Shown piece by piece: positions 27,113 to 32,131 of a stretch of DNA of 64,000 nucleotides. Source of the stretch: Candidatus Nitrosymbiomonas proteolyticus (GTDB lineage Bacteria; Armatimonadota; Fimbriimonadia; Fimbriimonadales; Fimbriimonadaceae); NCBI GenBank assembly GCA_017347465.1, contig AP021858.1, forward strand, positions 2,188,472 through 2,252,471. Reading direction: 5' to 3'. A model generated the notes under the pieces. That model was not told where the DNA came from and searched no databases. It worked only from the letters and a program-made list of their open reading frames with translations. How positions within the stretch are numbered: the first letter of the stretch is position 1; every line of letters starts with the position of its first letter. Made by a program: the position numbers and the translations under genes.

Positions 27113-27116
<4 letters not shown>
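26010..27116 (+). CDS. carA: Carbamoyl-phosphate synthase small subunit CarA
   Basis: 368 aa from GTG 26010, where the family's N-terminus (xLVLxDG) begins; an earlier GTG at 25965 is close to a TAGAAT hexamer and cannot be excluded. CarA hydrolyses glutamine and channels ammonia to CarB, for arginine and pyrimidine synthesis. The N-terminal domain shows [14 protein letters not shown] and YPLIGNYG. The C-terminal class I amidotransferase has the nucleophile Cys in [11 protein letters not shown] near residue 257 and the His-Glu pair in [13 protein letters not shown] near 346. The stop overlaps the ATG of the carB N-terminal half (ATGA), so the two are translationally coupled. Confidence 0.97.
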
Positions 27117-28861
<1,745 letters not shown>

Positions 28862-29576: not shown

Positions 29577-29606
29577 GGGAGGCGACCGCGTTGAAGAGGG
29601 TGTCGC

Positions 29607-30170
29607 TCACCGTTTCGACTTCCTCGCTCCACAAAGCCTCTCGGTAAAGCCACCTTCGTTCTCAAAGGAGTTCGCCTGAGACTGAATCTGTCTCGTGAGC
29701 AGGGCAGTGGCCACGGCGATCAGCGCAAGGGCAGCGTTGGCGCGGATTTCGGGTTCGGGGGATAGGGTGGACGAATTAGATTGGATCCGAGCATCGATAT
29801 CGTCGAGGGATCGGGGACGGGCGTCGATGAGGCGTTGCCGTCGGGCGTCGTCGCGGTCCCACTGAAGCAGCTTCCTGTGTCGTAGGAAGTCCTCGTAGTC
29901 AAGGCGCAGCTCCTCCAGGCTCGCACGCGCCACGCTGGTGAGCTTCATCTCCATCTTCTTGGAGGTCGCGCTCACCTGGCTGCCTTCTGCGATGTTCTGT
30001 ACACCTGAGCGAGCCGCCTGCACCATCTGATCCCTGGTTCGGCTCCTCGAGTCCACATATCGGTCTACAAAGTCCACCGTCAGGTCGTAGGCCAACTGCG
30101 CAACCTGAAAGGACTTGAGGTTCCTATATCCGCCATGCCTCGGAATCAATCCATCGTTCACTCCGTCCAC
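29607..30170 (-). CDS. Four-helix-bundle protein (23S rRNA IVP/S23 family)
   Basis: 187 aa. The core (residues 15-130) matches the family: YRNLKSFQVAQLAYDLTVDF; TRDQMVQAARSGVQNIAEGS, with the hallmark Asn-Ile-Ala-Glu-Gly; SATSKKMEMKLTSVARASLE; and ELRLDYEDFLRH. The C-terminal 55 residues include LALIAVATALLTRQIQSQ and are an extension found in one subgroup. The founding members are encoded in intervening sequences of 23S rRNA, but many lie free in the chromosome and have no known function. The first codons (GTG GAC GGA GTG) are themselves part of the adjoining GTGGACNNN repeat, so the true start is uncertain (GTG 30170, GTG 30161 or a TTG a few codons later). Confidence 0.82.
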   Translation of the reverse strand: MDGVNDGLIPRHGGYRNLKSFQVAQLAYDLTVDFVDRYVDSRSRTRDQMVQAARSGVQNIAEGSQVSATSKKMEMKLTSVARASLEELRLDYEDFLRHRKLLQWDRDDARRQRLIDARPRSLDDIDARIQSNSSTLSPEPEIRANAALALIAVATALLTRQIQSQANSFENEGGFTERLCGARKSKR

Positions 30171-30272
30171 CTAGTCCACTCCGTCCACTTAGTCCACACG
30201 GTCCACCTAGTCCACTCCGTCCACCCAGTCCACTCCGTCCACCCAATCTTCGCTGTCCACCCAGTCCACTCC
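30165..30272. repeat. GTCCACNNN nonamer tandem array (12 units)
   Basis: Twelve consecutive 9-base units. Eleven begin GTCCAC and end CTA, TCC, TTA, ACG, CTA, TCC, CCA, TCC, CCA, CCA and TCC; unit 10 is the diverged ATCTTCGCT. The last three bases alternate, giving an 18-base composite period. On the minus strand it reads GTGGACNNN and runs directly into the start of the four-helix-bundle gene. It has no spacer structure of CRISPR type. The copy number may change by slippage. Confidence 0.9.
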
Positions 30273-30404
30273 TTCCCCCAAAAAGCCTACTGATTCCCCC
30301 ATCCAGGAATCTCGGCCGTCCGTTCTCCCCGCGGCCCTTCAGGCAAAGCCACGTCGTACGGTGACCGGAAAGCCAGACGACGGCAGGGAGGGGGAGGCGT
30401 CGGA

Positions 30405-30410
30405 TACAAT
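30405..30410 (+). promoter_or_regulatory. -10-like element (near-leaderless start) for carB C-terminal half
   Basis: TACAAT lies 11 bases before ATG 30422 without a Shine-Dalgarno, giving an expected leader of only about four bases. It supports independent transcription of the second carB half. Confidence 0.5.
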
Positions 30411-30421
30411 ATCCTTTTGAA

Positions 30422-32131
30422 ATGCCACAGAAGGTGCTCGTGCTCGGCTCCGGGCCGATTCGGATCGGACAAGGAATCGAGTTCGACTATTCCTGTGTCC
30501 ACTGCGCTTGGGCTTTGCAGGACATGGGGTACGAGGCGATCCTTCTCAACAACAACCCCGAGACCGTTTCGACGGACTTCGACACCGGGGATGCCCTTTA
30601 CTTTGAACCTGCGACGCTGGAGGACGTCCTGGACGTGTACCGTCGGGAGTCTCCAATCGGCGTGGCGGTGCAATTTGGTGGGCAGACCGCGATCAACCTC
30701 GCGCAGGGGCTTCATGACCGGGGCTTGAATATCCTAGGGACCTCGGCCGAGGCGATCGCATTGGCGGAGGACCGAGACCAGTTCGAGCGGTTGTTGCGGC
30801 GGCTGGGGATTCCGAAACCTCTGGGCAGGGCGGTGCGAAGCTTATCGGAGGCGCTGGAGGTGGCCGAGGAGATCGGCTTTCCGGTGCTGGTTCGCCCGAG
30901 TTTCGTGCTGGGGGGCAGGGCGATGGAGATCGTTTTCGACGCGGAGCAGCTCCGTCGCTTCTATCGGATCGCGGAGGACGAATCGCCGGGCCAGCCGGTC
31001 TTGATCGACAAGTATATGCAGGGGATCGAGGCCGAGGTCGACGTGATCTCAGACGGCGAGGCGACATTGGTGCCGGGCGTGATGGAGCACATCGAGCGGG
31101 CCGGAGTCCATAGCGGCGACTCGATGGCCGTGTTTCCCCCGGTGAACCTCTCGGACCGGGTGATTTCGCGGATGGTGGCCGCCGCTTGCGACCTTGCGCG
31201 AGAGATCGGGGTTCGGGGGCTGATGAACATTCAGTTCGTGGTCGCCCCGACCGAAGGTTCGGGGGGCGAGGCCGTCCCGCAGATTCTGGAGGTGAACCCT
31301 CGCGGCTCGCGCACGGTTCCTTTCTTGGCGAAGGTAACGGGGATTCCGATGGTGGACCTCGCAACGCGGGCGATGATGGGGCAAAGCCTTTCGGAACTAG
31401 GGTACGAGTCGGGGCTTTGGCGGCTCGACACTCGCGGAAGGCTGCATGGGGCGGAGCCTGAGGTGAGGTCGAAGTCCAAGGGGACGGTACTTTCCGAGGC
31501 GGAGATCTCGCGGCTGATGGATGGGACCGCGGTTTCGCGAAGCCTATTCTCGGGCGCGCCCTTCTATGCGGTAAAGGCCCCTGTCTTCAGCTTCCAGAAG
31601 TTGGCGCGAGTCGAGCCGAGTCTTGGCCCTGAGATGAAGTCGACGGGTGAGATCATGGGGATCGATTCGACGTTCGAAGGCGCGCTCTATAAGAGCCTGG
31701 TGGCGTCTGGGATTTCGCTCCCGTCTGGAGGGGTGGTGGTGATCAGCGTCAACGATGCCGACAAACCGGCGGCCATCGAGATCGCGAAGAGTCTCTCGGC
31801 GCGGGGGCACGAGATCGCGTGCACGGGCGGAACTCATCGGGCCTTGCAGGCTGCGGGCGTGGCGAGTCAAAGGGTCGCCAAAATCAGCGAGGGCTCGCCC
31901 CATCTGCTCGACCTGGTGATGTCGCGGCGGGTCAGCTTGCTGATCAACACCCCCGGAACGGACGCGGAGACCGAAGCCGAGGCCTCTCGCATTCGGAGGG
32001 GATGCATCGAGACGGGCGTTGCTTGCATCACAAACATCGACACGGCGGAGGCTCTGGTGAAGGCGCTGCCGTTCTTCGAGGACCCTTCGGGAGTCTCGTG
32101 CCTTCGGCTCGACGAGTACTTCGGGCGGTAG
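30422..32131 (+). CDS. carB: Carbamoyl-phosphate synthase large subunit, C-terminal half
   Basis: 569 aa. It begins KVLVLGSGPIRIGQGIEFDY, exactly the start of the second half of one-piece CarB. It contains the second ATP-grasp domain (VQFGGQTAINLAQ, VLVRPSFVLGGRAME, LEVNPRGSRTVPFLAKVTG), which phosphorylates carbamate. The C-terminal 130 residues form the MGS-like allosteric domain (AAIEIAKSLSARGHEIACTG, NTPGTDAETEA, CITNIDTAEALVKALP), where effectors such as UMP bind in E. coli. With the gene at 27113 it makes a complete large subunit. The gene has its own -10-like element and a clear preference for G in third codon positions (GTG, GCG, CGG, GGG). Confidence 0.96.
   Translation: MPQKVLVLGSGPIRIGQGIEFDYSCVHCAWALQDMGYEAILLNNNPETVSTDFDTGDALYFEPATLEDVLDVYRRESPIGVAVQFGGQTAINLAQGLHDRGLNILGTSAEAIALAEDRDQFERLLRRLGIPKPLGRAVRSLSEALEVAEEIGFPVLVRPSFVLGGRAMEIVFDAEQLRRFYRIAEDESPGQPVLIDKYMQGIEAEVDVISDGEATLVPGVMEHIERAGVHSGDSMAVFPPVNLSDRVISRMVAAACDLAREIGVRGLMNIQFVVAPTEGSGGEAVPQILEVNPRGSRTVPFLAKVTGIPMVDLATRAMMGQSLSELGYESGLWRLDTRGRLHGAEPEVRSKSKGTVLSEAEISRLMDGTAVSRSLFSGAPFYAVKAPVFSFQKLARVEPSLGPEMKSTGEIMGIDSTFEGALYKSLVASGISLPSGGVVVISVNDADKPAAIEIAKSLSARGHEIACTGGTHRALQAAGVASQRVAKISEGSPHLLDLVMSRRVSLLINTPGTDAETEAEASRIRRGCIETGVACITNIDTAEALVKALPFFEDPSGVSCLRLDEYFGR

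Follow-up and report, generated by a model that had tools for sequence, protein, structure and literature searches.

The window, a 64,000-nucleotide stretch of the Candidatus Nitrosymbiomonas proteolyticus genome, holds a short interval between a thioredoxin-like gene and the C-terminal half of carB (carB-C) in which a nonamer array precedes a four-helix gene (Table 1). The interval does not lie inside an rRNA gene, and an Rfam search over 27-33 kb of the window matched no known RNA family. On the plus strand, 11 exact GTCCAC cores (GTGGAC on the strand of the gene) were located at 30165-30269 in a 9-base register, with one degenerate unit among them and further degenerate units at both edges; the core is kept while the three spacer bases vary from unit to unit. 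TRF gave the array a score of 91 at period 9 and of 153 at period 18. Within the window, self-match peaked at 24 for lag 9 and at 58 for lag 18, far above the largest values of 11.5 and 13.0, respectively, obtained from 60 Markov-1 sequences of 64 kb. The nonamer array of the original prediction is therefore real, with coordinates right within a few bases, and it does run into the start of an S23/IVP-family gene, as had been claimed: the GTG start lies within the array and the protein scores above the NCBIfam cut-offs of both TIGR02436 (30.7 bits against 24) and TIGR04258 (59 against 40). Its score against Pfam PF05635 was 30.3, slightly under the cut-off of 33.8. Opposite the 5' array of about 12 units, the inverted side of the window copy consists of one unit in the linker, at the position where relatives and a second copy in the same genome carry inverted (a') arrays. 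The 3' array is missing, and the window copy has probably lost it or never had one. The gene is opposite in orientation to its neighbours, whereas co-orientation is the rule among loci. The large subunit of carbamoyl-phosphate synthase is encoded in the window by two half genes (27113-28861 and 30422-32131) with other genes between them; in some relatives, G009 and G091 among them, the C-terminal carB half lies inside one open frame of more than 1000 codons.

Table 1. Features of the window locus and of the two other four-helix loci of the genome (window coordinates unless marked otherwise)
Feature	Position	Strand	Remarks
Element-holding interval, terminator after thioredoxin-like gene to carB-C	29577..30421		boundaries approximate
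Four-helix gene, TIGR02436 + TIGR04258 suffix, 187 aa	29607..30170	minus	GTG start inside last array units
Four-helix suffix domain TIGR04258	29610..29753 (genome 2218081-2218224)	minus	
Single inverted unit GTCCAC (sense strand) in linker before suffix domain	29768..29773	minus	
5' array A, unit GTGGACNNN, ~12 units (11 exact cores)	30159..30280	minus	18-base higher-order period
Second suffix-type gene	genome 2438518-2439033		between mod-like and res-like genes
groES-groEL locus array CCAACANN x17	L020 4164-4297 (genome 158163-158296)		directly 3' of four-helix stop

Using an AlphaFold model of the window protein (pLDDT 89.7), a fold search returned the S23 structures 2gsc (five chains; Z 16.0, rmsd 1.8 over 113 residues) and 2rld (Z 13.8), which places the protein in the S23 fold. 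This relationship surfaced through the fold search, while phmmer found no match for the protein in the PDB. Next after the S23 proteins came Avd in DGR complexes at Z of about 12, amid unrelated helical bundles of similar Z. No catalytic domain was found in the window protein. The four-helix gene is the only gene of the element, in which Pfam and NCBIfam revealed neither domains relevant to transposition nor a Y1/HUH transposase. RVT_1 had no match at E <= 1e-8 in the window genome (G000), and neither a reverse transcriptase nor a template/variable repeat pair was found at the locus. Suffix-type proteins at L028, L037, L044 and L108 carry a C-terminal topoisomerase-type DNA-binding zinc ribbon, detected as PF01396 in the first three (two above cut-off); the motif occurred in 1 of 81 proteins of a wide sample of the suffix type. 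At L028 and L037, the linker to the zinc ribbon is itself encoded by repeat units.

Pattern searches of the 2.81-Mb genome were used for all genome-wide statements on arrays. Three consecutive GTGGACNNN units with at most two mismatches occurred in two places only, the window locus and 2435662-2438876, and strict GTGGAC arrays were confined to the surroundings of the two suffix-type genes. Judged by sequence features, the genes on either side of the second suffix gene resemble the mod and res genes of Type III restriction systems. This copy has a short 5' array and three inverted units in its linker, and GTGGAC-type units also lie inside the neighbouring methyltransferase (mod) gene. The mod gene additionally holds an array of CAATCCG heptamers, a different unit from the nonamers (L019 6023-6055, genome 2438022-2438054), in a 19-residue stretch absent from the G093 and G003 orthologues; it is perhaps the trace of another four-helix element. 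A third four-helix gene, which has no suffix, is located between groES and groEL (neighbours identified by eye from the flanking sequence). Inverted units GTTGGCAT and GTTGGACT lie 5' of its start, and arrays of the CCAACANN unit on its 3' side are found nowhere else in the genome.

Scanning one genome per species, we found at least 567 suffix-type relatives and kept 80, of which 71 could be assigned and were spread over 24 phyla. The suffix type was carried by one viral contig and one plasmid and by no phage record, and phage or plasmid carriage was rejected. With simple self-match scores as thresholds and many loci coming from metagenome-assembled genomes, 44 lag-9 arrays were counted near the suffix gene (-300/+200, 88 kb) versus 6 in 491 kb of flank, and 16 lag-10 arrays versus none; other lags gave one or two near the gene. 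The elements have mainly period 9 and in some cases 10, with the cores GTGGAC, ATGGAC and GTCNGAC, and CACGGAC with period 10. Arrays occupy the upstream and downstream sides as well as the linker between the four-helix and suffix parts, and the linker often holds a further pair of a GTGGAC-like array (A) and its reverse complement (a') before the suffix domain. Four such linker pairs, when folded, gave strong hairpins (z -3.4 to -5.5). At loci with both, A came before a' on the sense strand in 32 of 33 cases. Unusually homogeneous long arrays of at least 16 units adjoin the suffix genes at L070 (1591-1878) and L063 (4595-4683), which suggests recent expansion. Heptamer arrays, some of them inverted pairs, lie 0.7-2.5 kb from the suffix genes at L060 (6700-6813), L094 (6808-7103) and L109 (4279-4370) and may belong to other four-helix or gene-less elements.

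For the plain type, 97 TIGR02436 loci were examined: the groES-groEL gene, six plasmid loci and 90 loci of relatives. At 79 of them the flanks had a dominant period of between 7 and 11 bases, as did 3 of 91 distal flanks used as controls; the period was 7 at 58 loci, 8 at 10, 10 at 5, 9 at 3 and 11 at 3. About one locus in five had no clear array. Since sister families use 7, 8, 10 and 11, the idea that period 9 is special was rejected. Upstream and downstream arrays are reverse complements of each other: the median inverted match was 22.2 within a locus and 8.4 across loci, and it exceeded the cross-locus 99th percentile at 66 of 95 loci, compared with 1 in direct orientation and 0 for distal flanks. 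The upstream array was G-rich in 67 of 71 cases. S23/IVP four-helix genes are flanked by inverted tandem arrays, G-rich A on the 5' and C-rich a' on the 3' side, with a typical size of 4-5 units. One genome can hold several elements with different units (e.g. loci L251, L252, L273, L277 and L284 of G001), and tandem pairs with neighbouring genes are predominantly co-oriented (53:7 and 29:8). The original prediction had suggested searching related genomes for arrays next to such genes, and both the lag-9 counts and the plain-type periods show this association. Its counter-case, arrays of this type scattered independently of the gene, is mostly not so: strict arrays in the window genome keep to the two suffix loci, although in the relatives G028, G038, G044 and G140 a small number of GTGGAC arrays with one mismatch are not next to a suffix gene.

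The repeat unit follows the protein rather than the host. On the suffix-protein tree there are 7 changes of array core class, against a mean of 29.7 and a minimum of 24 after shuffling. Host phylum changes 53 times on this tree; this lies within the shuffled range of 50-59 (mean 55.4), so that the tree carries no host signal. On the plain-type tree, period changes 11 times (shuffled minimum 18) and loci with period 9-11 all fall within one clade. Unit similarity correlated with protein identity in the plain type (Mantel r 0.37, permutation maximum 0.22), also for pairs below 60% identity. Each element thus has its own period (7-11) and unit sequence, and both go with the protein. Part of the tree correlation would be expected from linked descent of array and gene alone. 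Retention of the unit between proteins that are only 40-50% identical points towards a constraint on the unit.

Sites that otherwise match differ in whether they hold an array element or a gene-less array pair. Plasmids of Nostoc, Calothrix and Picosynechococcus have filled and empty sites that differ by elements of about 0.4-0.5 kb, in backbones that are 89-93% identical. At Nostoc site A, the element (ATCAGGAGTCAGG... gene ...CTTCTGACTCCTGACTTCTGGATTCTG) sits at a stop codon, at the junction GGTTCTA/GGTTATGCAA. In the same operon, a different four-helix gene, with ends of the GGGAAAA type, occupies site B, and at site C some plasmids have gene-less A/a' pairs and others nothing. Plasmid L229 has a gene-less array element within its four-helix gene. 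One more filled/empty pair was found in Calothrix. In Picosynechococcus PCC 7003, a four-helix element separates cas10 from cmr3 in a type III-B CRISPR operon (L218 1992-2348); it is absent in PCC 7002 (L220). MAFFT partly misplaced this junction, so that the comparison speaks for insertion but does not fix its end point. Comparisons at the level of gene order, not base-exact, gave the same picture for the window genome: 7 bp separate mod from res in G093, at the junction that holds the element in G000, the same-genus genome G001 has 135 bases and no helix gene between the thioredoxin-like homologue and carB-C, and no helix gene was detected in the examined flanks of the other carB-C loci. The several empty plasmids versus few filled ones, the two independent elements in one operon and the nested case argue for insertion rather than deletion at the plasmid sites. 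Neither a target-site duplication nor a fixed target sequence was established for the elements. The suggestion that repeat and gene form a small mobile module is supported by these filled/empty pairs and by the association of arrays with the gene family, which is both general and specific.

We consider it likely that array and four-helix gene together form one compact, minimal mobile element whose protein recognises its own arrays. Elements related to the window's, each with inverted arrays of its own 7-11 base unit as boundaries, are spread over two dozen or more bacterial phyla. Judging by its fold, the four-helix protein is probably an oligomeric nucleic-acid-binding bundle like XCC0516 and Avd. 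The oligomer could recognise the repeated core via several subunits, perhaps with one subunit per unit, as proposed here beside arrays mostly of 4-5 units. Binding would bring the two arrays together or melt them, and insertion might be completed with host replication or recombination functions, which we propose because no nuclease, transposase or reverse transcriptase can be recognised in the element. Gene-less arrays would be mobilised in trans. Co-orientation with neighbours could reflect an RNA or transcription-linked step, or selection.

Movement of the element as a transcript, with the Avd-like four-helix protein as the RNA-binding partner of a reverse transcriptase supplied in trans, appears unlikely. 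The Avd-like fold, the strong co-orientation with neighbours (53:7 and 29:8), the family members inside transcribed 23S rRNA and a mild enrichment of RVT_1 genes in carriers (Fisher p 0.024) would fit such a route. However, RVT_1 is not detectable in the window genome or in the multi-copy carriers G001, G005, G014, G127 and G130, and the topoisomerase-type zinc ribbon on some suffix proteins is a DNA-binding domain. Because multi-copy carriers lack RVT_1, a reverse transcriptase as obligatory partner is unsupported. The window element shares with diversity-generating retroelements the related four-helix fold of Avd (also noted in PMC10053308), but its locus lacks both a reverse transcriptase and a template/variable repeat pair, and its genome has no RVT_1 gene.

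It is quite improbable that the arrays are RNA or DNA sites of a regulatory cassette controlling its own and neighbouring genes and spread by ordinary horizontal transfer and homologous recombination only. Co-orientation and insertion at gene junctions in operons, the resemblance of the G-rich 5' array to a ribosome-binding region, the correlation of array type with protein type and the well-folding linker hairpins are all compatible with control functions, but clean presence or absence between adjacent conserved genes is left unexplained, as are the gene-less array insertions and the copy nested in a four-helix gene. Further, the neighbours at the inspected loci (carB, mod/res, groES/groEL, cas10/cmr3 and plasmid genes) share no common gene set.

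That an ordinary, slippage-prone 9-base microsatellite overlaps the start of a resident gene by chance and could vary its N-terminus is very hard to credit: its unit length is a multiple of three and heptamer number differs among Coxiella strains (PMC4990558), but three upstream units of the window array contain an in-frame TAG or TAA, so that only the last one or two units are translatable and the array is mostly untranslated, spacer bases vary between units while the core is kept, most arrays of the family are located outside the ORF, with a period of 7, 8 or 10, and upstream and downstream arrays are reverse complements. The change of N-terminal length by slippage that had been proposed for this array is not supported in view of these stops, and no evidence of the equally proposed phase variation was found; either was rejected as the main meaning because of the in-frame stops and the inverted architecture.

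The mobile element has several known counterparts. In REP/RAYT elements (REPtrons), short inverted repeats enclose a gene, and copies that lack the gene occur elsewhere; in this general architecture they are like the element class described here. Unlike REPtrons, the window element has no Y1/HUH transposase and its family's ends are tandem arrays instead of single hairpins. The 23S rRNA intervening sequence (IVS) of Coxiella burnetii carries three tandem heptamers (GACAGAT) just upstream of the S23p start as well as terminal inverted repeats, with heptamer number differing among strains (Warrier et al., PMC4990558). Such IVSs are thus similar to the window locus in having an S23 ORF with tandem repeats before its start, and to the element class in being small selfish elements (about 0.4 kb) with complementary ends that carry a four-helix gene of the S23/IVP family (PMC4990558). 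In contrast, they lie inside rRNA and are removed by RNase III; the window element has protein genes on both sides, its array has period 9 and its protein has a suffix domain. Heptamers and ends were treated in that work as local features, with no array/protein specificity or mobility outside rRNA (PMC4990558). CPR rRNA insertions also carry a four-helix domain (PMC11270868). The 23S rRNA intervening sequences look like special cases of the array-bounded four-helix element.

The STRR and heptamer arrays of cyanobacteria, Beggiatoaceae and Xanthomonas are, like the element arrays, tandem short units with a kept core, and they were described with no link to a four-helix gene being drawn (MacGregor, PMC4679880; Rehm, PMC4692102). 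The distribution of TAACTGA suggested horizontal transfer with no mechanism evident (PMC4679880), and Xanthomonas has convergent inverted array pairs (PMC4692102). From the Nostoc plasmids only, we infer that STRR/heptamer arrays are gene-less copies. IVP genes in cas loci have also been noted before, by Zhang and Ye. That study placed an IVP gene between cmr2 and cmr3 in a cyanobacterium and counted it among CRISPR-Cas-associated functions (PMC3936711). The L218 locus of PCC 7003 is similar to this case, and comparison of its sequence with the empty L220 site indicates an insertion with array ends. In the literature searched, of which coverage was incomplete and preprints were outside, no published statement of the general array-gene unit was found.

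More tentatively, and with somewhat less than even confidence, we propose a new class of bacterial transposable elements that would need for movement, besides host functions, no more than an Avd-like four-helix protein and inverted tandem arrays of the 7-11 base unit which that protein recognises. Many short-unit arrays of unexplained origin (STRR, TAACTGA and GGGAATC heptamers) would then be non-autonomous copies, and 23S rRNA intervening sequences rRNA-resident members. To our knowledge, the S23/IVP four-helix family is widespread, with structures solved since 2006, and has no assigned function, a selfish nature has long been ascribed to 23S rRNA intervening sequences with no mechanism given, and there is no consensus on where the heptamer arrays of cyanobacteria, Beggiatoaceae and Xanthomonas come from. 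The four-helix family and the intervening sequences would be joined into one mobile element, which would also provide an origin for the heptamer arrays. This reading would explain why four-helix genes are found inside CRISPR, chaperonin and restriction operons, and a sequence-specific mobile element of about 450 bases that has no recognisable recombinase would surprise specialists. It would also provide a testable recognition rule, in that each protein has its own repeat unit and period.
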